Of a stretch of 64,000 nt of DNA, positions 75-17,941 are shown piece by piece. Under the pieces are notes generated by a model that was not told the origin of the DNA, made no database searches, and saw nothing but the letters and a program-made list of their open reading frames with translations. Source of the DNA: Bdellovibrio sp. 28-41-41. GTDB taxonomy: Bacteria > Bdellovibrionota > Bdellovibrionia > Bdellovibrionales > Bdellovibrionaceae. The number at the start of each line of letters is the position of its first letter. Within the stretch, counting starts at the first letter, position 1. The DNA is taken from the NCBI GenBank assembly GCA_002256935.1, contig NCGL01000002.1, positions 1 through 64,000 on the forward strand. The letters are read 5' to 3'. The position numbers were made by a program, and so were the translations under genes.

Positions 75-89
75 GGAGGGCCGTCTATA
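75..89 (+). promoter_or_regulatory. Ribosome binding site and probable ATA start codon
   Basis: GGAGGG at 75-80 is followed after six bases by ATA at 87-89. The EamA reading frame is open from 72 (stop TAA at 69-71). It has no ATG, GTG or TTG before the first membrane helix, which begins near 114; the TTG at 159 lies inside that helix. ATA is therefore the best-placed start. Initiation at ATA is inferred, not shown. Confidence 0.55.
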
Positions 90-995
90 TCTTCTAGTCA
101 CGAGATCTCAGGGTTCCAACTCGCTCTGGCTGCAAATATCCTTTGGGGAACGTCGTTCTTGGCGTCCAAACAAACTCTCGCGGCCTGGGGGCCGCTAACA
201 GCCTCAGCACTGCGCTTTGCGGTTGCCCTTTTGGTTATGGCTCCGTTATTTAGTCTTATCGGATTAAAATTGAGAATGCCAAAGAGCCGAAGTGAATTTT
301 TTTGGATATCAATGGTTAGTATTTCTGGTTTTGGATTTTTGTATCCACTTCAATTAACTGGTCTTAAATTCATTTCTTCAGGTTTATCGGCAGCTATTAT
401 GCTGACCTCCCCACTTTTTGTCGTTGCCCTAAGTGCGTTGCTATTAAAACAGTCGATTTCAATTCTAAAAATTGTTTCACTCGGTCTTGGAATAGTTGGC
501 GGGTGTGTTCTTCTTTTTCCAAACGCAAATTTTATTTCGACGACGGAGTTTAATTTCTTTCAAGGTTCGATGTTAACTCTCGCAGCCTCGTTTTTTCTCG
601 CGCTTTCGGTGATTGCTACCAGAAAGGCATCGGTTTATATGGACTCAGCAAATTTAACTTTTTGGTCAATGCTACTTGGGCTAGTACTGCTTCTACCACT
701 TTCGACTTATGAAATAGCTAACGGTGGTTTATTTGCCCCATCGTGGCCATCATTTTTATCTCTGCTTTACTTGGCCATCGTATGCTCGGCTCTTTGCTTT
801 TTTATTTGGAATAAGGCGATCATTAAAAGTACACCGAACGAGCTTGCTTCAACAATGCACATTAAGACACCAACTGCTGTTATTCTTGGATGCGTCCTAG
901 CTAGTGAGCCATTTTCTCTTTCGCTGTTGGTAGGTGGAATCGTCGTGTCTTTTGGTGTTTGGCTCTCTCAAAAAGAACAAGTGAGGAAAAAATGA
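87..995 (+). CDS. EamA/DMT-family membrane exporter
   Basis: Predicted inner-membrane drug/metabolite transporter of about 302 residues, the usual size for a protein with two EamA repeats and ten helices. The first helix (about residues 10-28) contains the typical NILWGTSFLASK sequence. A later stretch near residues 245-260 contains AIIKSTPNELASTMHIKTP, resembling the end of the second EamA repeat, followed by the last helices. The substrate cannot be read from sequence; relatives export amino acids, nucleosides or other small metabolites. The start is taken at ATA 87 because a TTG start at 159 would remove most of helix 1. Its stop overlaps the radical SAM start (ATGA at 992), so the two are co-translated. 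Confidence 0.85.
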   Translation: MSSSHEISGFQLALAANILWGTSFLASKQTLAAWGPLTASALRFAVALLVMAPLFSLIGLKLRMPKSRSEFFWISMVSISGFGFLYPLQLTGLKFISSGLSAAIMLTSPLFVVALSALLLKQSISILKIVSLGLGIVGGCVLLFPNANFISTTEFNFFQGSMLTLAASFFLALSVIATRKASVYMDSANLTFWSMLLGLVLLLPLSTYEIANGGLFAPSWPSFLSLLYLAIVCSALCFFIWNKAIIKSTPNELASTMHIKTPTAVILGCVLASEPFSLSLLVGGIVVSFGVWLSQKEQVRKK

Positions 996-1705
996 TCGAT
1001 TCGTATTTAAAATTTTCACCTGATCTTATTATTGAAGCGACCTCGGTTTGTGATCGAATTTGTCCTGGCTGTTATGCGCCAAATGTTGTTTCTAAGGAAA
1101 GTGCTGAAAAACTTTTACTAGAAAAGCCAGAATTGTTTATTGATCAAAAAACACTGTTGGAACTGTTTTCAAATTTATTCAGTGATGGAAAACCAAAATT
1201 AGGACTTGTATCAATCCGTGGCGGCGAGCCGACTAGACATCCCCACCTGGCTTCAATTGTCGAAGTAGCTTCTAAATTTTCAGAAAATGTCTTCATTGAA
1301 ACTCATGGCCGATGGATTTTAAAGCCAGAGGCATTCAACCAATCGTTGTTAGAAGTATGTAAAATGACCGGCGCTACCATAAAATTGTCATTTGATAAAA
1401 TGCACGGCGGAGATTCTATGCCGCTTCAAGAAATTACAGACTATCTTGAAAAAAATAATATCAATTTTATTATCGCAATTACGGAGCATACGGAATCCGA
1501 GTTTTTTATGTCCCGAACTCTATGCGGCTGGATTCCTGATAAAAATATTATTTTTCAAAAGAAAAGTCGTTCGGCTGATGATTTGATAAAGCCTACTATT
1601 GGTGTTGTTAAGGTTAATGGCACATTCTCGCAAAGTTTAAATTCTAGAATTTCTTTTCAGTCCCCAGCGAATTCAGCCAGAAATAGCTCTGAGGTAGTGG
1701 CATGA
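992..1705 (+). CDS. Short radical SAM protein
   Basis: A 237-residue protein with the radical SAM cluster motif C-x3-C-x2-C (Cys20, Cys24, Cys27 in CDRICPGC) near the N-terminus and the SAM-binding GGEP motif near residue 75 (RGGEPTRHPHL). It is shorter than most radical SAM enzymes and has no C-terminal SPASM-type cysteine cluster, so it looks like a core domain only. The substrate is unknown and no precursor peptide is visible next to it. ATG 992 overlaps the EamA stop and follows a GTGAGG ribosome site; an upstream in-frame TTG at 959 is unlikely. The next gene starts inside its last codons (1702). Confidence 0.75.
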   Translation: MIDSYLKFSPDLIIEATSVCDRICPGCYAPNVVSKESAEKLLLEKPELFIDQKTLLELFSNLFSDGKPKLGLVSIRGGEPTRHPHLASIVEVASKFSENVFIETHGRWILKPEAFNQSLLEVCKMTGATIKLSFDKMHGGDSMPLQEITDYLEKNNINFIIAITEHTESEFFMSRTLCGWIPDKNIIFQKKSRSADDLIKPTIGVVKVNGTFSQSLNSRISFQSPANSARNSSEVVA

Positions 1706-2853
1706 AAACGGCTCTAGCCATTTTTTTACTATTATTCTTTCAAGATAAGGCCATATCAAAACCAAAAGAAATTGTAATTGGCCTAGCCTCTAATTTTAGC
1801 GAAGTTAGCTCAAGCTCTTCTAATCCATTTGGAGGGTACTTTCGTGATGGAATCACGTTAGCTATTCAAAATGCAAAAGCAAAGCTAGATCAAAAAGAAA
1901 TCACCATAAAGACTCAAGAATTTGATTACGGCACATCGGATGCGCGGGTTCTGGAAGTAGCAAAAAATGCGGCATCGTCTGAAGCCATTGCCGTTGTTGG
2001 TTACAACTTTTCTTCACATGCACTATTGGCCGCTCCGATTCATCAGCAAGCGGGATTACCGATGATTACCCCGAGTGCCACCGCCAATCGAGTAGGTTCA
2101 CTTGGCGCGTTTATCCATCAAGCGTGCTTTGACAATGCTTTTATGGGAGAAACGTTAGCTCATGTGGCTTTGAATAAACTTAAAGCTAAACGTGTCGCTA
2201 TGATTACAGCGATGGACTGTGCCTATTGTACCGATTTAGCAACCGCTTTTGAAGCTGAATTTAAAAATGGCGGAGGAATGATAGTCGTATCTGAGCAAGT
2301 ACTTCAAAAAGATACGGACTTTACGTCAACTTTTAAAAAGCTGAAAAGCTATTCATTCGATACCGTTCTAGTTCCCAATCAAGAGTTACTATCGGCGCGA
2401 ATTATATCGAGTCTTATTTCAAGTGGAATTTCCAAACCGTTTCTTGGTGGTGATGGTTGGGGAAATGTTGGGGACGAATTCTTTTCGATCTTAGGCGGCA
2501 AGCCGCTAACAGGCTACTCGGTTTCTCACTGGCATCCCGAGGAACAATCTATCAAATCGAAAAAATTCGTAACCGACTACAAAAATCGTTTTGGTAAAAT
2601 GCCTAATGATACGTCCGTACTTGCTTATGATGCCATGTCTATTCTTATTGATGCCCTACTGAAAACAAACGACTTTACTCGAAGTGGGGTTGAAAAATCC
2701 CTGTCGAAATTAAATGAATTTCAAGGTGTTACCGGTAAATTCATTTTTAGAAAAAAGCAATCTCCAAGAAAAAGTTTAGTTCTTCTCTCAGCTAACGAGT
2801 CGAAATTTAATGTAATTGAAAAAATTGAGCCCTCCAAAGGAGCTGCCCGATGA
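1702..2853 (+). CDS. Orphan periplasmic binding protein, LivJ/receptor-ligand type
   Basis: A 383-residue exported protein with an N-terminal signal peptide (MKTALAIFLLLFF, cleavage near residue 18) and a type I periplasmic binding fold of the branched-chain amino acid ABC family (Peripla_BP_6). Typical segments are the early KEIVIGLASNFS strand, GYFRDGITLAI, the hinge region VVGYNFSSHALLAAP and PMITPSATAN. No ABC permease or ATPase gene is nearby; the neighbours are a histidine kinase and a sigma-54 activator. The protein may therefore deliver a ligand to the kinase rather than to a transporter. That role is inferred from context. The start overlaps the previous stop. Confidence 0.8.
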   Translation: MKTALAIFLLLFFQDKAISKPKEIVIGLASNFSEVSSSSSNPFGGYFRDGITLAIQNAKAKLDQKEITIKTQEFDYGTSDARVLEVAKNAASSEAIAVVGYNFSSHALLAAPIHQQAGLPMITPSATANRVGSLGAFIHQACFDNAFMGETLAHVALNKLKAKRVAMITAMDCAYCTDLATAFEAEFKNGGGMIVVSEQVLQKDTDFTSTFKKLKSYSFDTVLVPNQELLSARIISSLISSGISKPFLGGDGWGNVGDEFFSILGGKPLTGYSVSHWHPEEQSIKSKKFVTDYKNRFGKMPNDTSVLAYDAMSILIDALLKTNDFTRSGVEKSLSKLNEFQGVTGKFIFRKKQSPRKSLVLLSANESKFNVIEKIEPSKGAAR

Positions 2854-3386
2854 TTCATGGACAAAAAATAACACTTAGGGCAATCGAAGCGGACGATAGT
2901 TTTGGATATCACCACTGGATTAATGATGAGGAAACAAATCAATGGCGAGGGCTCTATCACCCGACCTCTGCCGATGAAGCGGCAACTTGGATTGAAAATC
3001 AACGTCGAAAATCGCCCACCGAGTTAAGTTTAGCAATTGATATCGGCGATGAGCATCTTGGATTTATCGGGTTAAGAGAAATTTGTCCTCGTTCGCGCCG
3101 AGCTGAGATTTGGATTTACATTGGCTCAAAGTCACATTGGGGCCAAGGAGTGGGACAGGATGCCGTCCAATCCATTTGCGATTATGCTTTTTTACAAATG
3201 AACCTCAATCGAATTTGGCTAGAATGTAATCCTGAATTTGCTCCTGTTGTTAAATGCTACCAGAAAGTTGGATTTGTAGAAGAAGGTCGGCTTCGGGAGG
3301 GCTATTATCGTGACGGACAGTATCGCGATACCTGTATTATGGCTTTATTAAAATCGGACTGGGAAAAAAATCGAGGCCGGAAATGA
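2850..3386 (+). CDS. GNAT acetyltransferase, RimJ/RimL-like
   Basis: A 178-residue N-acetyltransferase of the GNAT_3 type. It begins with the usual ITLRAIEADD strand, has the acetyl-CoA-binding segment near residues 95-105 (SHWGQGVGQDAVQSI), and ends with YQKVGFVEEGRLREGYYRDG, characteristic of RimL/SpeG-like enzymes. The acceptor could be a protein N-terminus, polyamine or amino acid; it cannot be chosen from sequence. A strong ribosome site (AAAGGAG, 2837-2843) precedes ATG 2850, which overlaps the stop of the binding-protein gene. Confidence 0.8.
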   Translation: MIHGQKITLRAIEADDSFGYHHWINDEETNQWRGLYHPTSADEAATWIENQRRKSPTELSLAIDIGDEHLGFIGLREICPRSRRAEIWIYIGSKSHWGQGVGQDAVQSICDYAFLQMNLNRIWLECNPEFAPVVKCYQKVGFVEEGRLREGYYRDGQYRDTCIMALLKSDWEKNRGRK

Positions 3387-4756
3387 GTCGTGCTACGCTT
3401 CGATCGCAAACGCATAAAACCCTTGCAGCAACATTTTTATTGTTAGTGTTTGGCTCTGGTGCCGTTATTTTTGGTTACGCCGATATTCATGGATCTATAG
3501 CTCGAAAGCAAGCAGAAGAAACAGTAACTAGAAATCTATCGGATCAGGTGGACGCATTAGTTCCCTCGTTTCTTCTGCCGGAACAAAAACAAGGTGCTAG
3601 TTTAATTTTAGATCGAATCAAAAACGACGAAGACCTGACTACAATTTCAATAGTAGATAAATCTATTTTTTCAGAATCCACTAAAAACTGCCACCCGCAA
3701 GGAGAGGCAGTAATCTGTAGTGACAACGAGAAGATCACTGTTTTGACGCCTATTAAAGAAGGCGAAAAATTATTTAGCTATTTACTTAAAGAAAAAAAAG
3801 CAAGCTCAGTGGCAGGTGGAGAGCTGGTTAAGACGTTCCTTTTGACGTTCTCTTTATTGTTTGTTACTTTTTGTATTCTATTTCTAATGTTAACAAGAAT
3901 GTTAGGTCAGGTTCCATCAGATCTAAAATTGCTAGTAAATTGGCTCGAAGATGATCTCAACGGTAATCATAAAGAAAAACCGGCCTTTAGAATTGCCGAG
4001 TTTAATAATCTAGCAAATAGCATTTTTGATATTATCGAAAGACACGATCGAGCCCGTGATCAAGCAATTGTTGGTCAGCTCACAAGTGGCATCATGCATG
4101 ACATCAAGACACCCCTAGCTTCTATTGTTGCCGCGACCTCTTTAGTCCGGGAGCAATCAAAAGAGTCTCCGAAGCGTGCTAGCCGTTTAGAAAACTTGTT
4201 CGAAGTGTGCGATGCCCGCCTTAATGTCATCGGGGAAATCATCGAGTCCACGTTGGATGGCAGCCGAGAAATTCATGTTGATAAAAGGAACTTAGAAATT
4301 AATTCAACTATTAAAAAAGCGATAAATCTAACTAAAGATATCGTACATGGCCGACGGGGGCAGTTGATTTTTGAAGAATCACAATATGATATTAAAGTGG
4401 CCCATGATCCTACTCAAATCATCCGTGTGTTAATAAATTTAATTAAAAATGGATTAGAGGCTTCTCAATCTTCCGGCGAAGCCAAGCTGATTGTGTCTGT
4501 TGAAAATTGGCCGGATGAATTTAAGATCAAGCTAGAAGATAATGGACCTGGAATTTCTGGGCAGCCGGATAAAATATTTCGTGTTTTTCGAAGCACAAAA
4601 ACTCATGGTAGCGGCCTAGGACTTCTAGTTTCCAAAAAAATTGTTGAGGCGCACGGTGGTAAACTAGAAGTGGGACGCTCGGCTCGTTTTGGGGGAGCTG
4701 CCTTTGAAATACGTCTTCCTAATTATTCTGAAAGACCAAATGAGGTGGCTTTGTGA
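3383..4756 (+). CDS. Membrane sensor histidine kinase
   Basis: A 457-residue kinase with two membrane helices (about residues 13-35 and 149-172) flanking a periplasmic loop of about 110 residues that contains two cysteines. The phospho-acceptor His is near residue 238 in GIMHDIKTPLAS. The ATPase domain shows the N box (NLIKNGLEAS), DNGPGI and GSGLGLLVSKKIVEAHGG. The stretch after the second helix is short, with at most a degenerate HAMP. It is translationally coupled to the GNAT gene (ATGA overlap) and to the response regulator downstream, which is its likely phosphorylation partner. The adjacent orphan binding protein is a candidate ligand carrier for the periplasmic loop. Confidence 0.9.
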   Translation: MSRATLRSQTHKTLAATFLLLVFGSGAVIFGYADIHGSIARKQAEETVTRNLSDQVDALVPSFLLPEQKQGASLILDRIKNDEDLTTISIVDKSIFSESTKNCHPQGEAVICSDNEKITVLTPIKEGEKLFSYLLKEKKASSVAGGELVKTFLLTFSLLFVTFCILFLMLTRMLGQVPSDLKLLVNWLEDDLNGNHKEKPAFRIAEFNNLANSIFDIIERHDRARDQAIVGQLTSGIMHDIKTPLASIVAATSLVREQSKESPKRASRLENLFEVCDARLNVIGEIIESTLDGSREIHVDKRNLEINSTIKKAINLTKDIVHGRRGQLIFEESQYDIKVAHDPTQIIRVLINLIKNGLEASQSSGEAKLIVSVENWPDEFKIKLEDNGPGISGQPDKIFRVFRSTKTHGSGLGLLVSKKIVEAHGGKLEVGRSARFGGAAFEIRLPNYSERPNEVAL

Positions 4757-6153
4757 AAAAACTACCAAGAATATTAGCAATCGACGATGATTCTGTTTGG
4801 CTGCGTCAGCTATCGCTTATACTAGAAGATGAGTGTGAATTTGAGTCTTACCCAACAATTGATCAGGGCCTTGAAGCTATTGAGAGAAACTTTTACGATA
4901 TCATTTTACTTGATTTGAATTTTGATAACGATGTTCGTTCTGGGTTAGATATATTTCGCCACATCGCAGCCGCTGATCGCGGAGCCGATGTTATTGTTAT
5001 TAGTGGTGAAACAAAACCTGATCGACTCATTCAGATTTTAAATGCGGGCGTCACTCAATTTGTAACTAAACCCGCACAGCCAGATGAGGTACGCGCAGCC
5101 GTCCGACTAACTCTTCAGCACAGAGAAATTCGTCTGCGTGCCCTAAACTTGGCTTCGATAGACGGCTCGACTGGTGACGATGGCACTCACTTTATCGGTT
5201 GCTCACCTAAAATTCAATACCTTCGCTCTGAGGTTAGCCGCATAGTTCGAGATGGGATTAAGGATGTCCTTGTCATGGGAGAATCGGGAACTGGCAAAGA
5301 AGTTTTGGTGAAAATGCTTACTGAGCAAGCCGACCCCGCGAAACGTTTAATCCCGATTCACTGCGGAGCTATTAACGACGGGCTGGCCGAATCTGAACTC
5401 TTTGGTCATGTTAAGGGGGCTTTCACGGGAGCTGACCGTGATCGCTTGAGCGCCTTTGAGGCAGTCGGCGGCGGATTTGTCTTTTTTGACGAAATTGGCG
5501 ATATGCCGCTCAATCAACAGGCGAAGCTACTTCGTGTAATTCAAGAGCGCACCGTTCAACGTGTGGGATCGCTTGATAGCAAAAAGGTAAACTTTCGCTC
5601 TATCTCTGCGACAAATGTTGATCTTAAAAAAGCCATTTCTGAAAAACGGTTCAGAGAAGACCTTTACTATCGAATCGCTAAAGAAGTTTTATGGATTCCG
5701 CCACTTCGTGAACGAGTCGAAGATATTCCAGAGTTGGTACAATATTTTTTAGCCCAATTCCCAATAAGAAAAAGAAAAACGATTACTAACGATGCCATGA
5801 GTCTGCTACAAGCCTATAGTTGGCCGGGCAACGTTCGAGAGTTGAAATCCGTTATCGAGGGTTTTCAAAGCCGTTGTGTCGAGCCAGTAATTAGGGATAA
5901 AGACGTCTGCCGGGCATTGCCTGAACTTGCGCACCTTGCCTCAACGCGAATCCGAAAGGTTTTAATTGCAAGCTATGGATCAAATCTGATGGATGCGGAA
6001 AAAAAACGTTATGAGCGTGCGATCATTGAAGCACATGGAGATAAAACACAAGCTGCAAAGAATATGAATATTCCGAGAGCTACGTTTTTTCGTCGAGCTA
6101 AGGATCTTGGCTTGGTTAATTCTCGGCAGAAGAATCGAAGCATGGACAATTAG
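4753..6153 (+). CDS. NtrC-family sigma-54 response regulator
   Basis: A 466-residue three-domain activator. The receiver (residues 1-125) has the acidic pair IDDD, the phospho-acceptor Asp near residue 53 (LLDLN) and a conserved Lys (TKPA). The AAA+ domain has Walker A GESGTGKE near 176, the sigma-54 contact loop GAFTGA near 222, and FFDEIGDMP. The C-terminal Fis-type helix-turn-helix is at about 430-455 (KTQAAKNMNIPRATFFRRAKDL). GAFTGA is intact, so activation of sigma-54 RNA polymerase is expected. GTG 4753 overlaps the kinase stop. The target promoter is unknown; a sigma-54-like sequence lies at 7003-7017. Confidence 0.9.
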   Translation: MKKLPRILAIDDDSVWLRQLSLILEDECEFESYPTIDQGLEAIERNFYDIILLDLNFDNDVRSGLDIFRHIAAADRGADVIVISGETKPDRLIQILNAGVTQFVTKPAQPDEVRAAVRLTLQHREIRLRALNLASIDGSTGDDGTHFIGCSPKIQYLRSEVSRIVRDGIKDVLVMGESGTGKEVLVKMLTEQADPAKRLIPIHCGAINDGLAESELFGHVKGAFTGADRDRLSAFEAVGGGFVFFDEIGDMPLNQQAKLLRVIQERTVQRVGSLDSKKVNFRSISATNVDLKKAISEKRFREDLYYRIAKEVLWIPPLRERVEDIPELVQYFLAQFPIRKRKTITNDAMSLLQAYSWPGNVRELKSVIEGFQSRCVEPVIRDKDVCRALPELAHLASTRIRKVLIASYGSNLMDAEKKRYERAIIEAHGDKTQAAKNMNIPRATFFRRAKDLGLVNSRQKNRSMDN

Positions 6154-6342
6154 TCTTGAAATGCAGCCGCAAAGTAGGTTACGCATTTGTAAAAAATTCT
6201 ATTCTTAATCGTACATCACTAATATTTATTTGAGCTCCGTAACCCAATTGCGGAGAGCTATTTTCAAACCAAACCTAGCTGGTCACGAAAGCTCCCCACG
6301 CGTGGAACTTTGGCGACAATTAGGAAGGGAAATTAATCGCGG

Positions 6343-6570
6343 CTATAGAGAAGCGAGTTTAACGATCGATACAATGAACGCGGCTAGTAATAGGAAGACT
6401 CCATTCAGAGCGATTATTCCAAATCGCTCTGACCAGGCAACGCCCAGTGAATCTTTCTGATCTATTTTATCAGATTTAAAACCTTTTAACCCAACTCTTA
6501 GGAGACCTGTTCCTAAAATAGTTAGGATAAAAACGACAATCCAGCTAAAATTAGCTATTTCATTTTGCAT
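6343..6570 (-). CDS. Small two-helix membrane protein, unknown
   Basis: A 75-residue reading frame with two hydrophobic segments (residues 8-29 and 50-72) separated by a charged loop (KGFKSDKIDQKDSLGVAWSERF). GAGAG-type purine-rich sequence lies about ten bases before the ATG. I do not recognise the family. It is preferred over an overlapping + strand frame because it has a plausible membrane topology and a ribosome site, and because a perfect dyad at 6588-6605 sits just upstream as a possible operator. Confidence 0.45.
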   Translation of the reverse strand: MQNEIANFSWIVVFILTILGTGLLRVGLKGFKSDKIDQKDSLGVAWSERFGIIALNGVFLLLAAFIVSIVKLASL

Positions 6571-6587
6571 CCGTTAGTTCTCTCATA

Positions 6588-6605
6588 TTGTCGACTTATC
6601 GACAA
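6588..6605. promoter_or_regulatory. Perfect 18-base dyad, possible operator
   Basis: TTGTCGA (6588-6594), spacer CTTA, TCGACAA (6599-6605). The two 7-base arms are perfectly complementary. The dyad lies 18 bases upstream of the minus-strand small membrane gene start (6570), the expected place for a dimeric repressor site. It could also be part of a recombination site. Confidence 0.45.
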
Positions 6606-6885
6606 ACTGGTTGTTTGGTACGGTCCAGAGAAGCTTTTTGTCTGAACCGCATTAAATTCCTTATATGCTCGTAGTTTGCGAGGGCTCCCAAAACTGCCCA
6701 AACCGAATTAACTCTTTGCCGCTGGATCACGCCGGTACACAAGAAGTACCGTTATTTCTTTAGGTGTAGAGATAGATTTTCTCAATCTCAAAAAAGATCT
6801 ATAAATTATTTTAGAAGTTGCGACAAATACGACATTTCCATCAACAGACTTTCAAACTTCAATTCAAATAGTAGTCTCTCTTTCA

Positions 6886-6940
6886 CTGATACTCGCACTT
6901 GATACTCGATGAGACTCAGTCTCAGCATTGATACTGAGGC
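6886..6940. repeat. Iteron-like GATACT repeat cluster with palindrome
   Basis: Three direct copies of GATACT followed by CG or GA occur at 6888, 6901 and 6930. Between the second and third copies lies a perfect palindrome GAGACT-C-AGTCTC (6911-6923), and CTCAG/CTGAG arms flank the third copy. The spacings (13 and 29 bases) are not regular enough for a classical replication iteron array, but the density is unusual for intergenic DNA. Confidence 0.5.
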
Positions 6941-8851: not shown

Positions 8852-9138
8852 TGGAACTTAAAACATCAGAAATCCACCGGCGACTTGATGCCAAGTTCAA
8901 GATCGGAAGCGTTGAGGCTTCTGATCTTTTATCGGTTTTGCTGCTCGCGGCAGTTATGAATCTTGTTTTAGGACGCGTGCCTTACGGCGCAGTCCTTATT
9001 TTTGGAATTCCAGCGGCTTTATTTGTGGGCCTTTATTTTGGAAAACGCGGGAAACCCGACGGCTATTTGCAACACGCTATCAAATTTTATCTTTCATCCG
9101 GCGAACTTCGCGCCGGAAATAAAGAGGACCACCGATGA
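8848..9138 (+). CDS. VirB3/TraL-like T4SS membrane protein
   Basis: A 96-residue protein with two adjacent hydrophobic helices (about residues 26-45 and 49-66) and hydrophilic ends, as in VirB3/TraL/TrbD. The C-terminus GKPDGYLQHAIKFYLSSG resembles the TraL sequence following the helices. It sits between the pilin and VirB4, its normal position. The start is GTG 8848 or ATG 8851; both keep the family length. VirB3 is thought to link the ATPase to the inner-membrane complex. Confidence 0.8.
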   Translation: MMELKTSEIHRRLDAKFKIGSVEASDLLSVLLLAAVMNLVLGRVPYGAVLIFGIPAALFVGLYFGKRGKPDGYLQHAIKFYLSSGELRAGNKEDHR

Positions 9139-11537
9139 TTGCTAAAAAAATTCCGTTTTTTTGTTTTGACGACCACACAATGGTTTTTGATGACGGCTCT
9201 TTTGGCGTCGGGTTTAAACTTGGTGGCGTCGATATCAGTTCAGCCGCGCCAGAACTTATCAACTCAGTAAGCCAGAAAGTTGAAAGTCTGCTTGTGGGCT
9301 TACCAGAAGAGGTCAGGCTACAAGTTTTCTATCGTCTTACAAATTCGGCGAGCCAAGTTTTGAAGGAGCATTCAAACATTTCGTTTGAAGCGTCAGCCAA
9401 CTACAAACCCATTCGTGATGCTAGGCTTAAGTTTGTCGAAGCGAAAATGACTGATGAGAATTTGTTTGTTCCCGAAATTTTTATTTTTCTTAGATCAGCG
9501 CCGTTGAATCTTAAGAAGAGAAGATTTTTTGAAAAAGAACAAGTCTTTCAAGGATTCCCCGAAAAAGAATTCCTGGCGGCTAAAGAGCGTTTTTACATTT
9601 TGGTCACGCAATTTGAAGCGGCCCTTCGTTCGGCGCAAGTAGTTCCCGCACGGCTTTTAAGTGACGAATGGTTCAAGCTGGCTTTTTCGTATTTTAATTT
9701 TGAGCGCAGCGAAAACTTGGGCGCTCCAAAACTGCGAAATTCGCTTGAAGCGATGGCTCCTACCATCAGCGATCAACTGGCGCTTACAGACATTTCGGTC
9801 TCTGAAAAATGGCTTGAAATTGGAAACTTAAAATTTCGAGCCATCAGCCAAAGCTTGCTTCCGGAAGGAACAACTTACGCTTCGATGATCGAAGGTCTAT
9901 TGCAAGTGCCGTTTCATTTCTGGCTTTCGCAGAATATCCAAACGCTTAAGCAGCAAAAAGAAATTGAGGGCTTAGAATTAAAACGCCGAATTGCTAACTC
10001 CATGGCAAACGGCAGTAACAATGTCACAGATATTGAAAGTGAATCAAAACTTTCAAGTATTGAAGACTTACTGCGCGATGTGATGACCGGCTCCGAACGC
10101 CTGATTAGTTCAGACTTAAACATAATCATATGGGGAAAAACATCCGAAGAGTTAGAGCAAAAAAGTGAAGAAATTCTTCGTGCTTTTCGCTCAATGAATC
10201 AAGCCGAAGGGCTTGTTGAGACGTTTGCATTAGAAGACGTGTTTTTTAAAGCGGCTCCTGGCGTTTGCGAAGGTTTTCGTCATCGGAAAATGAAAACCTC
10301 GAACTGTGCTCACTTTATGCCGCTCTATGCGAGCTGGCGCGGAAATTCTCGGCCCGTGGTGCTTCTCACTAACCGTGAGGGAGCACCCTTTTCGATCGAC
10401 GTTTTTTCGAAAACCTTACCCAACTGGAACGGATTAATTTTCGGAGGTAGTGGAGCCGGAAAAAGTTTTACGATCGCGCAATTGATGCTTCAGTTTTGCG
10501 GCCAGAGCCCTCGCCCGAAGATCGTATGGATTGATAACGGTGCCTCCAGCGAAAAACTGATCGAAGTCATGGACGGTGAATTCATCGATCTAAACCTAGA
10601 GTCAGGAATTCGTCTAAATATGTTCGATCTTGAACAAGGAGCCACAAAACCAACGTCAAGTAAGATCAAACTTATTCTAGGCTGTCTTGAACTGATTCTA
10701 AAAGATGAAGACAAGCCAGGGCTTCCAAAGCGTGAAAAGGCACTTTTGGAAGAAGCCATTTTTGCGACTTACGAAAAGGCAAATGGTTTGAGTCCGACAC
10801 TTTCGGATTTAAAAGACATACTGCGAGCACATTCTGTTGAGGGCTTAAGAAAATTTGCGGACATTTTGTTTTCGTGGACCGGCGAAACCGCCTACGGACG
10901 GATGCTCGACGGTCAAACGACCGTCAAGCTCAGCAAAGATTTGGTGACAATCGAGATTAAGGGCCTTGATAACCACCGGGAGCTTAAGGACATTTTTCTA
11001 CTCTTGTTTACAAGCTACATCAAAGAAGAAGCGGCCCGGGATCTGGCGACACCGTATTTACTTATTATAGATGAAGCGCACAGGCTCTTTTTGACCCCCA
11101 GTGGAAAAGACTTCGCTATCGAGAGCTACCGCGTTTTTCGAAAATACAACGCAGGTATATGGTGTATTTCGCAAAATTATAGAGATTTTTTGAAAGACCG
11201 TGAGCTCGCCGATGCGCTCATGCCGAACACGACGAGCGTTTTTATTTTGCGGCAGAGAAAAATTGATTGGGACGATTTTAAAACTACTTTCGATTTCAAC
11301 GACGCTCAAGTTGATGCCGTTAAAAGTTTAGAAATCGTTAAAGGCAAATATTCAGAATTTTTCTTTATGCAGGATGAAAACCAAGCCGTGCTCAGGCTTG
11401 AGCCAGAACCATTGAGCTATTGGATTTGCACCACCGACGGAGCTGAAAAGTCCAAGATCGAAAGTATGCGCGAGAAATCCCCTGAGCTTGCGCTGATTGA
11501 TATTTTAACCAAACTTTCAAAAGGAGAAAATTATTAA
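9135..11537 (+). CDS. virB4: VirB4/TraC T4SS ATPase
   Basis: An 800-residue cytoplasmic ATPase that powers pilus assembly and substrate transfer. The N-terminal half has the VirB4/TraC-type domain (FCFDDHTMVFDDGSFGVGFKL) and the linker LLTNREGAPFSIDVF. Walker A is GGSGAGKSF near residue 437 and Walker B is LLIIDEAHRLF near 642, followed by a Gln-rich motif region (CISQNYRDF). Its size matches the family (about 800). ATG 9135 overlaps the VirB3-like stop; its TAA overlaps the probable ATT start of the next gene. Confidence 0.93.
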   Translation: MIAKKIPFFCFDDHTMVFDDGSFGVGFKLGGVDISSAAPELINSVSQKVESLLVGLPEEVRLQVFYRLTNSASQVLKEHSNISFEASANYKPIRDARLKFVEAKMTDENLFVPEIFIFLRSAPLNLKKRRFFEKEQVFQGFPEKEFLAAKERFYILVTQFEAALRSAQVVPARLLSDEWFKLAFSYFNFERSENLGAPKLRNSLEAMAPTISDQLALTDISVSEKWLEIGNLKFRAISQSLLPEGTTYASMIEGLLQVPFHFWLSQNIQTLKQQKEIEGLELKRRIANSMANGSNNVTDIESESKLSSIEDLLRDVMTGSERLISSDLNIIIWGKTSEELEQKSEEILRAFRSMNQAEGLVETFALEDVFFKAAPGVCEGFRHRKMKTSNCAHFMPLYASWRGNSRPVVLLTNREGAPFSIDVFSKTLPNWNGLIFGGSGAGKSFTIAQLMLQFCGQSPRPKIVWIDNGASSEKLIEVMDGEFIDLNLESGIRLNMFDLEQGATKPTSSKIKLILGCLELILKDEDKPGLPKREKALLEEAIFATYEKANGLSPTLSDLKDILRAHSVEGLRKFADILFSWTGETAYGRMLDGQTTVKLSKDLVTIEIKGLDNHRELKDIFLLLFTSYIKEEAARDLATPYLLIIDEAHRLFLTPSGKDFAIESYRVFRKYNAGIWCISQNYRDFLKDRELADALMPNTTSVFILRQRKIDWDDFKTTFDFNDAQVDAVKSLEIVKGKYSEFFFMQDENQAVLRLEPEPLSYWICTTDGAEKSKIESMREKSPELALIDILTKLSKGENY
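11519..11535 (+). promoter_or_regulatory. Ribosome binding site and probable ATT start codon
   Basis: AAAAGGAG (11519-11526), six bases, then ATT (11533-11535), which shares its last T with the VirB4 TAA stop. Starting at ATT gives a signal peptide beginning MKSIFKSL. The alternative GTG at 11557 lacks a ribosome site and removes the basic N-terminus. The same ATTAA arrangement recurs at 14501. Confidence 0.6.
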
Positions 11538-12225
11538 ATCTATTTTTAAATCGCTAGTGATTTGTCTGATGACCACCACCATTTTTGTATCCAGATCTGC
11601 ACGGGCCGATCTTTTCGGCGGTGATGTTGCGGTCCTTATGCAGATTTTGCAGGAAAATATTCGTCACTACTTCCAGCTTCAAGAAATGATCAAGCAAGGT
11701 CAAAATGCTGACAGCTATTTGCGCTGGATTAACAAGGGCCTTGATAACTCGATCGGTCTTTTGAAGTCGCTGCCGATCAAAGATGAAAAAGTTCTGTCCG
11801 AGCTAAAAGAATTTCGGCAGGCCATGGGGAAAGTATCAACCCTTTACGGCCAAGTACCACGAAGTCCCGAAGAGGCCCTGCAACTGCTGCATGACCAGAC
11901 CGTTGCCGAAAGTCTTCGAATGGCTACTAGTTTTAAGGAGTATTCAGAAACACAGGAAATGAATTCTAACCTTGCTCGCATCCAGGTGCGAGACGCTTCA
12001 CCAAAAGGGGCTGCCCGTATGCAAGTGGAAATGAGCGCCGATATTTTGAAAAGTTTGGCACAGCTTATCCGGCTCAACACCCAGATGCTAAAGCTTCAAA
12101 GTGAACAGCTTGCGATTAACAACAAATCATCAAAAGAAGGTGTCGCAAATTTCCAAAAAGTCAGCCGTGATTTAGGAAGCGGATTTTCGAATTTTAAACC
12201 CGAAATGAAACTAACGAGGTTTTAG
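11533..12225 (+). CDS. VirB5/TrbJ-like periplasmic T4SS protein
   Basis: A 230-residue exported protein. From ATT 11533 it has a normal signal peptide (basic MKSIFKS, hydrophobic core, cleavage near ARA|D at residue 26). The mature part is helical with Gln-rich coiled-coil stretches (LQENIRHYFQLQEMIKQ; QLIRLNTQMLKLQSEQLAINN), typical of TrbJ/VirB5 minor pilus proteins. Placement between VirB4 and VirB6 fits. The start codon is the uncertain point. Confidence 0.75.
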   Translation: MKSIFKSLVICLMTTTIFVSRSARADLFGGDVAVLMQILQENIRHYFQLQEMIKQGQNADSYLRWINKGLDNSIGLLKSLPIKDEKVLSELKEFRQAMGKVSTLYGQVPRSPEEALQLLHDQTVAESLRMATSFKEYSETQEMNSNLARIQVRDASPKGAARMQVEMSADILKSLAQLIRLNTQMLKLQSEQLAINNKSSKEGVANFQKVSRDLGSGFSNFKPEMKLTRF

Positions 12226-13194
12226 ATGTTTGAATACCTTGGATCAGCAGGCGCTGCACTTCACGGCGAAATGGTTAAAATGTATTGGGTGCTCATCATT
12301 CCATTTGTATTGTTGCTTTTTGGTCTAGAACTTTTAAAAGACGAAAGCCCCAATGCGCGCGATATCATCCGTAGAATCATGATTTCAGTCGTGATGCTGC
12401 TCACCTTTGACTGGTGTCTAAATTCAATCGCTTCAATCGGCGATGCGGTCACGGCCCAAATCAACGGTATGGAGCAACTCTCTGAAGTTATGGCTCGGCT
12501 TGGCCCCAATTATTCCGGTGGTGATAACTGGTTTAGCTTAAGAGAAACGACAATCTATATTTTTAGTTTGGCGGCCTACATCATAGCCTACGTTGGTTTT
12601 TTCACAGCAACCGCTCTCACGCATTTTGTATGGGCAATTTTGTATATCTGCTCGCCCCTGATGATTCTTATGTATATCAGCCGCAGCACCGCCTATGTCA
12701 CCACGAGTTTGTACAAGGGACTCATCCAAGTAGTCCTTTGGAAAATCCTGTGGAGCATTTTGGGTATTTTGTTATTGAAACTCGCAGTTCAACCACAAGC
12801 CGCAGGAATAGAAGACTATTTGCTGTCAATTGTAACGAATCTTTGCATTGGCGTTTCGATGCTATTCATTCCGATTGCGACAAAGTCCCTGATTTCTGAC
12901 GGGATGAACTCAATGGCATCAACGCTGGCACTAGCTCCGGCATTTGCGGCGTCGGGCGCAGTAAAATTAGTGGCAAGTAAGTTCGCTGCTAAAGCCGCCC
13001 AAGGGCTAAAGTCTGCGGCTTCGTTTGCAGCAAAACCACTTACCAACCCAATTGCTGGTCGAGCGGAACAACTAAAAGATCGACTGAAGCCAAGGTTTGA
13101 GCGGTTTAAGCGCGGTTATGAAAAAATCGGATTACCGCAGGAAATTATCAATAAACGAAATAAACAAGAAAAATCAAATAGGGAGAAAAAATAA
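12226..13194 (+). CDS. VirB6/TrbL-like polytopic T4SS protein
   Basis: A 322-residue inner-membrane protein with five or six hydrophobic segments between residues 18 and 245, including WVLIIPFVLLLFGLELL, YIIAYVGFFTATALTHFVW, ILYICSPLMILMYI and IVTNLCIGVSMLFIPIAT, and a basic cytoplasmic tail from about 260 (RLKPRFERFKRGYEKIG). The pattern matches VirB6/TrbL, which forms the inner-membrane channel. It starts one base after the TrbJ-like stop and is followed by a VirB8-like gene. Confidence 0.8.
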   Translation: MFEYLGSAGAALHGEMVKMYWVLIIPFVLLLFGLELLKDESPNARDIIRRIMISVVMLLTFDWCLNSIASIGDAVTAQINGMEQLSEVMARLGPNYSGGDNWFSLRETTIYIFSLAAYIIAYVGFFTATALTHFVWAILYICSPLMILMYISRSTAYVTTSLYKGLIQVVLWKILWSILGILLLKLAVQPQAAGIEDYLLSIVTNLCIGVSMLFIPIATKSLISDGMNSMASTLALAPAFAASGAVKLVASKFAAKAAQGLKSAASFAAKPLTNPIAGRAEQLKDRLKPRFERFKRGYEKIGLPQEIINKRNKQEKSNREKK

Positions 13195-13196
13195 AT

Positions 13197-13781
13197 ATGA
13201 GTAAAAATACGATACCGAATATCTGGACCGCGCAGGAAAAGGTGCTTCATCTTTACAAACTGATTTCACTCACCGCATGTGTATTTGCGTCCGCGATGGG
13301 AGTTGCGCTCATCGTATCACACTTTAAAAATCCGTTTGTGGTTGTTGCAAAAAATCATGAGATTGAATTTTACCCAACCCAAAGCGTAGCGGTTCCGCTA
13401 GAAAAAGCAGAGGTTGAGCAATTCACAAAGCAGTTTTTAGTAAGTCTTTATGTGTGGGGCGAATTTAACGCTGAGAAAATCGCTCGGTCCATTTCACCGT
13501 TCACCGAAGGCGCACTCGCTGACAAGGTCATCGGCACCCAGAGTCAGAAGTATTTAAAGGAGCTTGGTGGAAAGCGCCTTGCGCAGTCTTTGGCGTTCGT
13601 AGATGTGAGTGTCCTAGACGACCGAGTTATTTGCAAATTTGATCGGATTTTAAAAATAGAAGGCATTCCGCTTGTGATCCCCACCGAAGTGACGCTTGCG
13701 CTCACTCAAGGTGATCAAACTGTTTTTAATCCGATGGGAATTTATGTCGGCGGCATCAAAGAGAGTGAAAATGCGAAGTAG
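13197..13781 (+). CDS. VirB8/TraE-like T4SS protein
   Basis: A 194-residue protein with a short cytoplasmic N-terminus, one membrane helix (about residues 24-44) and a periplasmic domain, as in TraE/VirB8. The helix is followed by VVVAKNHEIEFYPT and later FLVSLYVWGEFNAEKI, similar to TraE proteins. VirB8-type subunits anchor the translocation complex in the inner membrane. GGGAGA (about 13182-13187) serves as ribosome site. The last 11 bases overlap the next gene. Confidence 0.8.
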   Translation: MSKNTIPNIWTAQEKVLHLYKLISLTACVFASAMGVALIVSHFKNPFVVVAKNHEIEFYPTQSVAVPLEKAEVEQFTKQFLVSLYVWGEFNAEKIARSISPFTEGALADKVIGTQSQKYLKELGGKRLAQSLAFVDVSVLDDRVICKFDRILKIEGIPLVIPTEVTLALTQGDQTVFNPMGIYVGGIKESENAK

Positions 13782-14505
13782 TTTTTACCTGTTGGTTGTA
13801 TTTGGTCTACTTAGTTATTTTCAGAGTCATGCTCTCGTTGGTGAAAAGCGGACGATCCTTACATCCGGCGAAAAAGTGCACACGATCCGCTATCAATTGG
13901 GTCAAAGCACCGTGCTTTATTTTGGAATGAAGCCTGAAACAGTTATTTGCGGAAATAAAAACTATTTTCACATCGACAAAATTAAAGAAGGTATCACAAT
14001 CCAAGCCGGTTCAAATTTTTCAACCAATCTGACCGTGCTCAGCCAAGGACGCCGTTTCTTGTTTTATCTGACTCCGGCTAATGGTGCAAAGCCCGATACA
14101 TTTGTAGAGGTCCGCTGGATTCCGCCCCAGGAAGCTAAACGTCTTTTAACCTCCAATGCGGGATCAAAACAAACCGTGAAGGAGCTGAAAGGTCATCTTC
14201 GAATGAACGCCCTTGATATCAGTCTTGTTCGGCAAATCACGGCATCAAAATCTAAACGCACGATTTTAGAATTTGAAGTGAAAAATTCTGGAAAGGATTT
14301 GATGAAAACCTCAGATATTCAAATCGAACTGCAAAAGTCCGGACACCCAATTCCACGCCAAGTGGCACTTTTTGAAATCGAAGAAATAAAGCCAAGCGCC
14401 AATTCAAAAGGCCGCGTGATTGTAACTGGCTCGATCTCGAAAGGAGCTACAATCGCGGTCAAATACCAGGGAATAGCTGGGACCATCCAAGGAGTCGTCT
14501 ATTAA
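13771..14505 (+). CDS. VirB9/TraK-like outer-membrane T4SS protein
   Basis: A 244-residue exported protein with a signal peptide (MRSSFYLLVVFGLLSYF, cleavage near SHA|L at residue 20) and a beta-rich body. Segments such as LGQSTVLYFGMKPETVICGN and GRRFLFYLTPANGAKPDTFVEV fit the TraK/VirB9 N-terminal beta domain. TraK subunits form the outer ring of the core complex with VirB10-like proteins. ATG 13771 is used because an upstream in-frame ATG (13696) lies in VirB8 coding sequence and would bury the signal peptide. The stop overlaps an ATT start. Confidence 0.75.
   Translation: MRSSFYLLVVFGLLSYFQSHALVGEKRTILTSGEKVHTIRYQLGQSTVLYFGMKPETVICGNKNYFHIDKIKEGITIQAGSNFSTNLTVLSQGRRFLFYLTPANGAKPDTFVEVRWIPPQEAKRLLTSNAGSKQTVKELKGHLRMNALDISLVRQITASKSKRTILEFEVKNSGKDLMKTSDIQIELQKSGHPIPRQVALFEIEEIKPSANSKGRVIVTGSISKGATIAVKYQGIAGTIQGVVY
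14489..14503 (+). promoter_or_regulatory. Ribosome binding site and probable ATT start codon
   Basis: AAGGAG (14489-14494), six bases, then ATT (14501-14503) sharing one base with the TraK-like TAA stop. From here the frame reads MKPIEKCRSYF before the membrane helix. The alternative GTG at 14609 lies at the start of the helix and has no ribosome site. The geometry is identical to that at 11533. Confidence 0.6.
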
Positions 14506-15433
14506 GCCGATAGAAAAATGCAGGAGTTATTTCAATAGGGCGAAAACGTATTTTCAAGAAAAGAGCGGCGGTAAAACGGTTTTACGAATCAAAAAAGCTC
14601 TCCCTTTTGTGGCGGCAGGGATTCTTGTTATTGGAGTAACGATTGAATTGCTGTCACCAAAAGTCGATCAAACATTCTACCGTCAAACCAGTGGCAAGAG
14701 TGAATTTAAGCGCGACAAAAAACTTCCGCCCGTTAGTGAAGCCATAGGAAAACTATTTGCTGCTGGCAGAAAGCAAGTTGAAGTAAACAATAAATCTGAA
14801 GCCGAGCTAAAGCGAAAACGAGTTGCAATTAAATATTGGGCACCACAAATCGTTGGAGAAAATGAGAATAGTCGAAAAGCTATTCGTTCAGGTTCAAAGT
14901 TGATTGGTATTTTAAAAAATCCAATCGACACAAGGGCGCAAACTCTTGTGCGCGTTTTAGTTTCTCGCGGCGGTGAATCTGGTGGTGTGGAAATCGAAGC
15001 TGGATCTGTGCTCGTCGGTCAATACAACTATCAAGGTGATGGCGACAGAGTACTGATTACCTTTTCAAGACTTGATCCTCCTGATGGCGGTGAACCTAAA
15101 AAGATCAGCGCCGTTGGGCTTGATGCCGGAAACTTCACCGCAGGAATTCAAGGCGAAGAGTTCACGGGGCAAGGAATGAAAGTCGCAGCCAGTATTGGGC
15201 TCAGTATGTTTTCGGGGATCACGAACACTTTGACAGAGCGTGAGTCACTAGGAAATTCGCTTGGAAATCCTACCGCTAAACCCACAATGAAAAATGCCCT
15301 GCTGCAAGGGCTATCAAAAGCAGCGCAGGATCAGACCGGGCGAACAGCTTCGGGGATTGAGCAAGAGCGCAGTTATGTGATTGTGCCCGAGGGAAAAGAA
15401 ATGATCATTGAACTTTTGGAGGACTACAAATGA
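14501..15433 (+). CDS. VirB10/TraB-like T4SS scaffold protein
   Basis: A 310-residue protein with a cytoplasmic N-terminus, one membrane helix (about residues 34-51, ALPFVAAGILVIGVTIELL) and a periplasmic domain. The C-terminal half contains GSVLVGQYNYQGDGDRVLI and SAVGLDAGNFTAGIQGEEF, typical of the VirB10/TrbI barrel that spans to the outer membrane, followed by a helical segment (GMKVAASIGLSMFSGI) resembling the antenna region. Starting at ATT 14501 supplies the basic cytoplasmic N-terminus expected for the family. Confidence 0.8.
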   Translation: MKPIEKCRSYFNRAKTYFQEKSGGKTVLRIKKALPFVAAGILVIGVTIELLSPKVDQTFYRQTSGKSEFKRDKKLPPVSEAIGKLFAAGRKQVEVNNKSEAELKRKRVAIKYWAPQIVGENENSRKAIRSGSKLIGILKNPIDTRAQTLVRVLVSRGGESGGVEIEAGSVLVGQYNYQGDGDRVLITFSRLDPPDGGEPKKISAVGLDAGNFTAGIQGEEFTGQGMKVAASIGLSMFSGITNTLTERESLGNSLGNPTAKPTMKNALLQGLSKAAQDQTGRTASGIEQERSYVIVPEGKEMIIELLEDYK

Positions 15434-16965
15434 GCGAACAAAAAAATACGCAGGATAATGACCTTATAACTCGCTTAGCTTTAATCGTCGGAGTCATGGG
15501 GGGATTATTTGGGGGATTAATTCTAAAAGGGGCCAGGCGGAAAGCGACTTGGACATGGGGGCGGATCAATGCATGGTTTTTCTATAGCATGACCGTCACA
15601 TTCTTTGTGCTGGCTCACAATCTTAACATTCCCTTTTTCATTGATAGTCTTTCGTGGATTTTCCCTAAAGGTTTAGGGGAATGGGTGTATTTCAATGTGC
15701 CACGCGGAATGCAGTTTACAGTTTTAGTCGTTATACCGTTTCTAGGATGGCTTGGCGCAATCGGCGCTGCCGTTAGTCTTCGTGTGCGAAAATATCAAGT
15801 TGGACTCGATCACTTAGGGCTTAGGACATCATCAAATTTAAAGCCTGTCGTTATTGATTCTTTCCGTGTCGGCGAACATCAAAAGAGATTGCTCGTTCGA
15901 GCTATTGGAATTGATATTAACGATTTCAAAAACAGAAAAGGTGCATTGGAGTCAGCATTCAACGCAATTGTCGAAGACATCAGAGTGCTTGAGAATGATC
16001 GCCAGTTCATTGAAATTTTGCTATCTGAAAAATCTCTTCCAACACTTGTTGGTTACGACGAAATGGTCACAAAGCATTTAGCTGCGCCATATACATTTTT
16101 GGTTGGCCAATCGCTGGGTGAATTTATCGTTGGAAATCTGCTTGAGCTGCATCATATGATTGTCGCCGGTTCTACCGGCGGAGGTAAAAGTTTTTTCTTC
16201 AAGCAAGCCCTTATGGGGATTGCCGAAAGCTCAAAGCACATTCAGTTTTATCTTATTGATCTTAAGCGCGGTGTCGAAGTGAAGATTTTTGAGAGGCTGG
16301 ACAATGTTAGAATCGCAAAAGAAGCCCACGAAGCGATAGCAATTTTAACTGCGGTTGTAGATGAAATGGACAAGCGATTTAAGTTTCTAGAGGAAAAAGG
16401 ACTGACAGAAATTGTTCCCGACAGAGATAAAATGGATCGTATCGTTGTCGGTATTGATGAAGCGTCCGTGCTTTTTACGATCGAGAAAAGTTCACGCTCA
16501 TCAAAGGCCGCCGCACAAAGTGCGCGTGATCTTACCGACAGAATAGCAAAACTGGGACGTGCGGCTGCGATTCATTTGATTCTAGCAACGCAAAAAGTGG
16601 TCAAAGAAACCATCGATACACGCGTTCAAACAAACATCAACGCACGAATGGTTTTCCGGGTGAACACAGTCGCAAGCTCAATGACAGTGCTTGGTAACAA
16701 GATGGCCGCTGAACTTCCAGAAATCAAAGGACGTGGTATTTGGTCAGTCGGAAGCAAAGACATCGTCGTGCAAGTACCACGGCTAAGTCCAGAAGAAGCA
16801 AACGACCGAGTCGATGATTTGCTAGAAAAGTTCAACGGAACTGGTAAATGTCAGTTTGGTCCGATGCTCTTAGATTTAGACGAAGTACAGCCAAAGAAAA
16901 ATATTTTTGAAACGCATTCCGACAAAAAAGTGCAGGTTGTAAATGATAAGGTAAACGCATCATGA
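15430..16965 (+). CDS. FtsK/SpoIIIE-like conjugative DNA pump
   Basis: A 511-residue membrane ATPase with three hydrophobic segments in the first 120 residues and an FtsK-type motor. Walker A is AGSTGGGKSFF near residue 244, followed by the typical YLIDLKRGVEV, and Walker B is VVGIDEAS near 338; LILATQKV and TNINARMVFRV are FtsK-family signatures. No gamma domain is present. In this operon it occupies the place of the coupling protein, which in most proteobacterial conjugation systems is VirD4/TraD-like. ATG 15430 overlaps the VirB10-like stop. Confidence 0.85.
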   Translation: MSEQKNTQDNDLITRLALIVGVMGGLFGGLILKGARRKATWTWGRINAWFFYSMTVTFFVLAHNLNIPFFIDSLSWIFPKGLGEWVYFNVPRGMQFTVLVVIPFLGWLGAIGAAVSLRVRKYQVGLDHLGLRTSSNLKPVVIDSFRVGEHQKRLLVRAIGIDINDFKNRKGALESAFNAIVEDIRVLENDRQFIEILLSEKSLPTLVGYDEMVTKHLAAPYTFLVGQSLGEFIVGNLLELHHMIVAGSTGGGKSFFFKQALMGIAESSKHIQFYLIDLKRGVEVKIFERLDNVRIAKEAHEAIAILTAVVDEMDKRFKFLEEKGLTEIVPDRDKMDRIVVGIDEASVLFTIEKSSRSSKAAAQSARDLTDRIAKLGRAAAIHLILATQKVVKETIDTRVQTNINARMVFRVNTVASSMTVLGNKMAAELPEIKGRGIWSVGSKDIVVQVPRLSPEEANDRVDDLLEKFNGTGKCQFGPMLLDLDEVQPKKNIFETHSDKKVQVVNDKVNAS

Positions 16966-17702
16966 GCATCATTTTGCAAGAGCGGGACAGAAAGATCTTA
17001 AAATTCATTTACGCTTACCGCGTGGTGAGTGTTGCCCAGATTCAACGACGATACTTTTCTAAAACATTTCGGACGGTCGGGCCTAGGCGAATTCGACAAC
17101 TCGCCAATGAAGGACTTCTTCAATCCTTTGTTACAGGGGAAGGATCAAATGTTTACAACTGCTTAAGGTTGACTGAGAAAGGTCGGAAGGCTACAAACGA
17201 ACTTTGGAACTTTGAAATCGACAATCCGCTTTTAAAAAGCGAGTCACCGATTCATGACCTGCGCGTTGCACAGTTAGCTGAATCGTTTGAAAGGCTTTCA
17301 ACATTTAAAAGTCTCTTCACTGAAAATTTAATGCAAAGTTCAACGGCTCTTTCAGATGACGAACGTCTAAAAGCATTGACGCAGTTACAAGCTGACGGAG
17401 CTTTGGTTCTATCGCCGCCAAAAGCGCCACTTTATTTTTACGGTCTAGAGTTTGAGATCAGCAGAAAGAGCCACGAGCGATACCGCGATAAGCTTACGAA
17501 CTACTACACGGCGAAAAATGTTGATGGCGTTTTATATATTTCAGATTCGCAAGTTATTCTCGACACCGTAGCACGGGCCGACACAGTGATTCGCTCTAAA
17601 CGGACTTCGATCTTACACTTGGCCCTTGAGAAAGATGTGTTGAACTCAACAGGGAAGATACAATTCAGTAAAGCTGATGGAGGAAACATTGAGCTATTCT
17701 AG
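16962..17702 (+). CDS. Replication-relaxation-like DNA-binding protein
   Basis: A 246-residue protein beginning with a winged helix (QERDRKILKFIYAYRVVSVAQIQRRYF; RRIRQLANEGLLQSF; LTEKGRKA), followed by an alpha/beta region with GLEFEISRKSHERYRDKLTNYY, a pattern seen in the replication-relaxation family. Members are encoded next to FtsK-like pumps in plasmids and conjugative elements and bind plasmid origins. No MOB-type three-histidine relaxase motif was found. It may be the origin-recognition component, possibly replacing a classical relaxase; that is inference. Confidence 0.7.
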   Translation: MSIILQERDRKILKFIYAYRVVSVAQIQRRYFSKTFRTVGPRRIRQLANEGLLQSFVTGEGSNVYNCLRLTEKGRKATNELWNFEIDNPLLKSESPIHDLRVAQLAESFERLSTFKSLFTENLMQSSTALSDDERLKALTQLQADGALVLSPPKAPLYFYGLEFEISRKSHERYRDKLTNYYTAKNVDGVLYISDSQVILDTVARADTVIRSKRTSILHLALEKDVLNSTGKIQFSKADGGNIELF

Positions 17703-17724
17703 TGCTAGAAATCAGCGAGCCAAC

Positions 17725-17757
17725 TCCTGGCTCAAGACCGGCTCGGTTGAGCCAGGA
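17725..17757. other. Strong hairpin after the transfer genes
   Basis: An 11-base stem (17725-17735 with 17747-17757; core CCTGGCTCAA/TTGAGCCAGG) with an 11-base loop. No T tract follows, so it is not a classical intrinsic terminator. A stable hairpin beside DNA-processing genes could be part of an origin of transfer or a transcript-stabilising structure. Confidence 0.5.
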
Positions 17758-17818
17758 CAAAGTGAGTTAAACAGTTGAAAAGACGGGAAATCAAAACTGA
17801 ATTTCAAAGGGGGGTCAC

Positions 17819-17869
17819 ATGAAACACAGTTTTTCGATTAGTGACTTGAATGGAGTGAACCTGCGGTAG
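17819..17869 (+). CDS. Possible 16-codon leader peptide
   Basis: AAAGGGGGG (17806-17814) is followed by ATG and a 16-residue frame MKHSFSISDLNGVNLR ending at TAG. It lies between the hairpin at 17725 and the lipoprotein gene. The strong ribosome site is the main reason to list it; composition gives no functional clue. Confidence 0.25.
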   Translation: MKHSFSISDLNGVNLR

Positions 17870-17924
17870 CGGTTTTATGAAATGAAGTGAATGATAACGA
17901 GATAATAAAAAAGTTTTTAATTTT

Positions 17925-17941
17925 AAAAGGAGATCTATATA
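17925..17941 (+). promoter_or_regulatory. Ribosome binding site and probable ATA start codon
   Basis: AAAAGGAG (17925-17932), six bases, ATA (17939-17941). The frame then reads MERRIIAGLLLVLNLTAC, a textbook lipoprotein signal. The only downstream standard codon near the start, TTG 18011, lies after the lipobox cysteine and would destroy the export signal. Confidence 0.6.

Follow-up and report, generated by a model that had tools for sequence, protein, structure and literature searches.

Do some genes of a conjugative element in Bdellovibrio sp. 28-41-41 truly begin at ATT or ATA codons and, if so, is this a trait of the element itself? An earlier note on the 64,000-nucleotide stretch of DNA analysed here (the window) had pointed to four such starts in or beside the element, each behind a strong ribosome-binding site. 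Direct reading of the window bore out the four codons with their sites and spacings, all on the forward strand. The EamA transporter gene (87-995; Pfam EamA match beginning at residue 8 of the frame that opens with ATA) has the Shine-Dalgarno (SD) sequence GGAGGG at 75-80, the spacer CCGTCT and ATA at 87-89. The gene of a TrbJ-like secreted protein with a signal peptide (11533-12225; homolog alignment) has AAAAGGAG at 11519-11526, AAAATT and ATT at 11533-11535; virB10 (14501-15433) has AAGGAG at 14489-14494, TCGTCT and ATT at 14501-14503; and a glycine-zipper lipoprotein gene (17939-18367; weak Pfam glycine zipper matches and alignment) has AAAAGGAG at 17925-17932, ATCTAT and ATA at 17939-17941. 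AAGGAG precedes each of these last three starts, giving an SD match of at least six bases at 5-8 nt, and the EamA match comprises only five bases (GGAGG). The distance of exactly six bases, which the note had read as a common geometry, did not prove to be conserved: its value changes with the choice of SD letters, becomes eight for EamA when counted from GGAG, and ranges from 5 to 8 nt in homologs.

We also confirmed that only ATA or ATT keeps the expected N-terminus, since any later ATG, GTG or TTG costs the signal peptide, the lipobox, the membrane helix or the first helix. The next canonical codon is a TTG at 159 inside the first helix of EamA, a GTG at 11557 beyond the charged region of the TrbJ-like signal peptide, a GTG at 14609 within the VirB10 membrane helix and a TTG at 18011 beyond the lipobox Cys of the lipoprotein; the TrbJ-like, VirB10 and lipoprotein genes have no ATG, GTG or TTG at all that preserves the N-terminus. 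The last T of the TrbJ-like ATT is shared with the VirB4 stop TAA (11535-11537) and that of the VirB10 ATT with the VirB9 stop TAA (14503-14505), and the lipoprotein ATA lies 236 nt downstream of the preceding gene. The ATTAA overlap thus holds for both ATT starts of the window; it fails as a general feature, since ATAA is seen in homologs as well and the lipoprotein gene is always separate from its upstream neighbour.

The EamA start is plausible, as the weakest and an isolated case among the four. Only five codons separate its ATA from the upstream stop (open frame of 307 versus 302 aa), and the one close ortholog found in the genomes searched has ATG at the projected start position, evidence for where the gene starts and not for a conserved weak codon. 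With this single ortholog, the start showed no conservation beyond chance. The contig begins within or near the element, 86 bases upstream of this ATA.

A T4SS gene cluster on a probable mobile element

The other three genes belong to a cluster containing a VirB4 ATPase, VirB10/TrbI and a coupling ATPase (all by Pfam), as in conjugative type IV secretion systems (T4SS) of the VirB/Trb kind. On the forward strand, it comprises a VirB4/TraC-like ATPase starting with ATG (9135-11537; Pfam P-loop_TraG, 2.6e-23, and TraC_F_IV), the TrbJ-like gene, a VirB6-like membrane protein (12226-13194; recognised by its operon position and with homologs in all loci), a VirB8-like protein (13197-13781; recognised from homologous loci), a VirB9-like protein (13771-14505; Pfam CagX, 1.8e-4, below the cut-off) whose TAA overlaps the VirB10 ATT, VirB10/TrbI itself (Pfam TrbI, 2.2e-11, above the cut-off), an FtsK/TcpA-like coupling ATPase starting with ATG (15430-16965; Pfam FtsK_SpoIIIE, 1e-20) and, as final gene, the lipoprotein with its IERRIIAGLLLVLNLTAC lipobox. 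The VirB6-like and VirB8-like genes have canonical starts and served as controls. This content (VirB4, VirB10 and an FtsK-like coupling ATPase, ordered with VirB6/8/9-like genes) resembles that of known TrbI/VirB10-type conjugative T4SS; the differences are the start codons and the TrbJ-like, VirB6-like and VirB8-like proteins, which matched no Pfam or NCBIfam family. No relaxase was identified among the proteins scanned. The intergenic region before the lipoprotein gene (17702-17938) contains an inverted repeat, CCTGGCTCAA ... TTGAGCCAGG, which is possibly a terminator or a transfer-related site.

The element also encodes a large serine recombinase (19149-20996, forward strand; Pfam Resolvase, 2.3e-33, and Recombinase), whose frame ends antisense through a complete tRNA-Arg (TCG) gene (20914-20990, minus strand; ARAGORN), the sole tRNA of the window. 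This arrangement suggests that the element integrated at the tRNA gene. No att repeat was found: positions 1-20800 of the window contain no 14-base copy of the tRNA-Arg region, so that the other end of the element is probably off the contig. Spread to other replicons was rejected for the TrbJ-like protein, which has no relatives in the viral contigs or the plasmid collection searched, and, with regard to plasmids, for VirB10, which has none in the same collection. The host genome carries an unusually large number of further VirB10-like loci, six in all (contigs C38, C81, C86, C130, C149 and C153), which belong to other T4SS types.

Recurrence of weak starts in homologous clusters

We compared start codons across 20 loci from related genomes, namely 19 homologous T4SS clusters (L099-L117) and the locus of the EamA ortholog (L118), and across 40 named loci retrieved by scanning genomes with the alignment of TrbJ homologs. 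Almost all of these 40 came from draft genomes of Bdellovibrionota (Bdellovibrionaceae, Bacteriovoracaceae and Oligoflexia). Codons of the ATT/ATA/ATC class (hereafter ATH) recurred throughout the phylum at homologous positions of the TrbJ-like, lipoprotein and FtsK-like genes and at some of those of VirB10. Using an assignment rule that weights SD strength, and on which the exact counts depend, we examined 44 distinct homologous loci and placed the TrbJ start of 18 at an ATH codon preceded by a strong SD (for example 'aaaggaggtcgt ATT aaa' in L113 and 'aaggaggcatc ATA aga' in L105); on the tree, the start switched at least nine times between a weak and a canonical codon. For the lipoprotein, ATT or ATA behind a strong SD was found in 13 of 34 homologs ('aaggagacgact ATT aga' in L101, 'aggaggtgaatt ATT aaa' in L112), with at least five switches; an intergenic gap of 74-383 nt precedes the gene in all homologous loci.

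The ATT of VirB10 overlapping the VirB9 stop is also present in L009/L102 and L010/L100, and ATA occurs in L103 and L104. The FtsK-like gene, which starts with ATG in the window, carries ATA at precisely that site in L100, L101 and L102 ('ggaggactacaaAT[G/A]'), the overlapping VirB10 stop being kept. In elements from two Oligoflexia bins (L152-L157; nKLKbin12 and nN3bin16), FtsK-like genes were assigned ATT starts with SD matches of up to eight bases, extending the pattern, as far as the assigned starts indicate, beyond Bdellovibrionales. Many homologs start with ATG or TTG, and the weak start is therefore not obligatory. Four TrbJ homologs (L106, L109, L110 and L111) have TTG starts accompanied by the longest SD matches overall (7-9 bases), as if a weak start and a strong SD were co-selected. 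The idea that the unusual starts of the window reflect one feature linked to the element is supported for three of the four genes, TrbJ-like, VirB10 and lipoprotein, and not for EamA, whose ortholog starts with ATG.

Tests against chance and host-wide usage

To judge how common such starts are in the host, we scanned its DNA for codons in frame behind an SD match of at least six bases near a coding start, using a small codon-pair gene finder trained on 749 kb of host DNA, the window and the regions around the six other VirB10-like loci included. In these 749 kb (526 genes, called ab initio), 58 canonical starts and only two ATH starts had such an SD, which is present in only about one sixth of host genes, and the two were exactly those at 11533 and 14501 of this element. 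In 400 kb sampled from another genome of the family, there were 35 canonical starts and one ATH start, which was followed by an ATG two codons later. The host overall thus makes no measurable use of ATH starts, and general host usage was rejected, as the chromosomal samples of the two genomes showed no enrichment of these codons behind SDs. The stretches sampled around the six further VirB10-like loci contained no ATH start with an SD of at least six bases. We also looked for genes whose coding signal extends well beyond their first canonical start in the upstream direction; this test, insensitive to short N-terminal losses, returned seven weak cases, none with an SD and an ATH codon.

Because the start-picking rule favours strong SDs, we reran it, unchanged, as a placebo test with 400 random codon trios of frequency similar to that of ATT/ATA/ATC. 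For the TrbJ-like, lipoprotein, VirB10 and FtsK-like genes together, it picked 37 ATH starts with an SD of at least six bases, compared with a placebo mean of 5.5 and a maximum of 15, so that none of the 400 trios reached 37; these counts come from related loci and are not independent events, a kinship that the switch counts on the tree address. The control genes (VirB4, VirB6, VirB8 and VirB9) had one ATH start against a placebo mean of 1.1. By family, the excess was clear for TrbJ (16 versus 2.8), the lipoprotein (12 versus 0.6) and FtsK (5 versus 0.6), and marginal for VirB10 alone (4 versus 1.5, reached by 19 of the 400 trios). As judged from sequence, the combination of an ATH codon with an extended SD is conserved, linked to the element and confined to certain T4SS genes.

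infC and a possible link with IF3

The host infC gene begins with 'taagtGGAGGTttcccATTaataag', the same architecture as the weak T4SS starts. Across 29 genomes of the Bdellovibrionota group (L119 and L161-L188), infC starts at ATT (21), ATC (4) or ATA (2) behind an SD of at least six bases in 27; the ATC start of four of them is a codon less often reported. The T4SS genes hence carry the only type of non-canonical start that seems to be in use elsewhere in these bacteria, where it is found in the gene of the very factor that selects against such codons. In E. coli, the AUU start of infC serves the autoregulation of IF3. An unusual initiator tRNA was rejected as an explanation, given that we found a tRNA carrying the standard GGGCTCATAACCC anticodon arm.

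We consider it probable that the TrbJ-like, VirB10 and lipoprotein genes are truly initiated at AUU or AUA, and that these are selected weak starts of the infC type, which would limit dose or couple assembly to the state of the cell. An extended SD (AAGGAG, AGGAGGT and the like) stands 5-8 nt before a codon poorly decoded by fMet-tRNA; the strong SD would retain the 30S subunit and IF3 would destabilise the mismatched start complex. Each mRNA would then yield little protein, and the amount should depend on how much free IF3 there is per 30S subunit. We infer such low, IF3-sensitive translation from the third-base mispairing of fMet-tRNA at these codons and from the rejection of mispaired complexes by IF3. 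In a small number of envelope components of the machine, selection would maintain ATT, ATA or ATC, or else TTG behind a very strong SD; the most likely benefit is a limit on their dose or a tie between the assembly of the machine and the translational state of the host.

To our knowledge, few natural AUU or AUA starts outside infC have been confirmed. For conjugation or T4SS genes, we found none reported in open-access full text, subscription papers aside; in other genes such starts are known. The Streptomyces sigR gene has a GTC start with a AGGAGGTG site, is repressed by IF3, and sets the SigR/RsrA stoichiometry (PMC5472188). It shares with our case a non-canonical start with an extensive ribosome-binding site conserved among relatives; it differs in that it involves GTC in a chromosomal sigma factor gene and was shown experimentally (PMC5472188), whereas ours concerns AUU and AUA in several genes of one machine, as deduced from sequence. 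In S. aureus, extended SDs precede the starts of infC (AUA), cvfC1 (AUU) and ccpN (AUA); the non-canonical starts tested with reporters gave ~10-30% of AUG expression (PMC13009471). cvfC1 and ccpN have the same codons with a conserved extended SD, but they are single regulatory genes of Firmicutes, neither clustered nor involved in conjugation (PMC13009471). A further parallel to the T4SS genes is infC, where, both in this host and in 27 of the 29 group genomes, ATT/ATA/ATC likewise follows an extended SD at 5-8 nt; the difference is that infC encodes IF3 itself and the T4SS genes encode envelope parts on mobile elements. The earlier note had proposed low-level or host-dependent translation of transfer genes; infC and the published cases naturally suggest such low-level, IF3-dependent translation.

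Alternative explanations

Could the starts be artefacts of mis-assembly, sequencing error or pseudogenes, with the true starts at downstream GTG or TTG codons? The window comes from a draft genome of 153 contigs and most relatives are metagenome-assembled genomes, but dozens of independent assemblies repeat this codon class at homologous positions, preceded by strong SDs, the frames are intact and downstream starts would lose the signal peptide, the lipobox or the membrane helix, all of which makes artefacts highly improbable. A second view is that the weak codons are a by-product of gene overlap: an ATGA would become ATAA, ATAG or ATTAA when the stop TGA changes to TAA or TAG, and translational coupling would tolerate the weak start without any selected regulation. 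This fits the ATG/ATA switch of the FtsK-like gene, which retains the overlapping stop (ATGA to ATAG), the VirB10 ATT, which overlaps the VirB9 stop in the window, L100 and L102, and seven of the 11 TrbJ ATH starts in loci with VirB4, which overlap the VirB4 stop. However, the other four lie beyond that stop, the passage from ATGA to ATTAA takes more than one change, and VirB6, VirB8 and VirB9, in the same operon, have no ATH starts. The lipoprotein gene uses ATT or ATA despite having no upstream overlap, and overlap as the sole cause was rejected for it. We regard the by-product explanation as unlikely.

Another possibility, which we take seriously while leaning against it, is that weak starts merely hold a few envelope proteins at a low fixed dose or set their stoichiometry, without responding to IF3 or to the state of the host. 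Several TrbJ homologs have TTG with a very strong SD instead of ATH, so that general weakness may be what is selected; this suggests that weakness behind a strong SD would be at least part of the selected trait. On the other hand, infC in these genomes has the same rare architecture, which in E. coli serves autoregulation, and an ATG with a weak SD would be a simpler route to a low fixed dose.

Biological significance

Under the reading that we favour, that of selected infC-type weak starts, a family of DNA-transfer machines uses ATT or ATA in several of its genes, with many evolutionary switches among ATG, TTG, ATT and ATA at the same sites. Gene finders restricted to ATG, GTG and TTG truncate such genes, and annotations will give these T4SS proteins incorrect N-termini. 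More speculatively, and we hold this to be rather doubtful, IF3 might be a phylum-wide translational regulator of conjugation, the T4SS transfer genes and infC forming one post-transcriptional regulon of AUU/AUA starts. If so, assembly of the machine would be permitted only while free IF3 is scarce compared with 30S subunits, as might occur in a certain phase of growth or predation, or in a newly entered cell. The start switches constitute a natural data set on what weak starts are selected for, and they suggest that conjugation in these bacteria may be under IF3 control.
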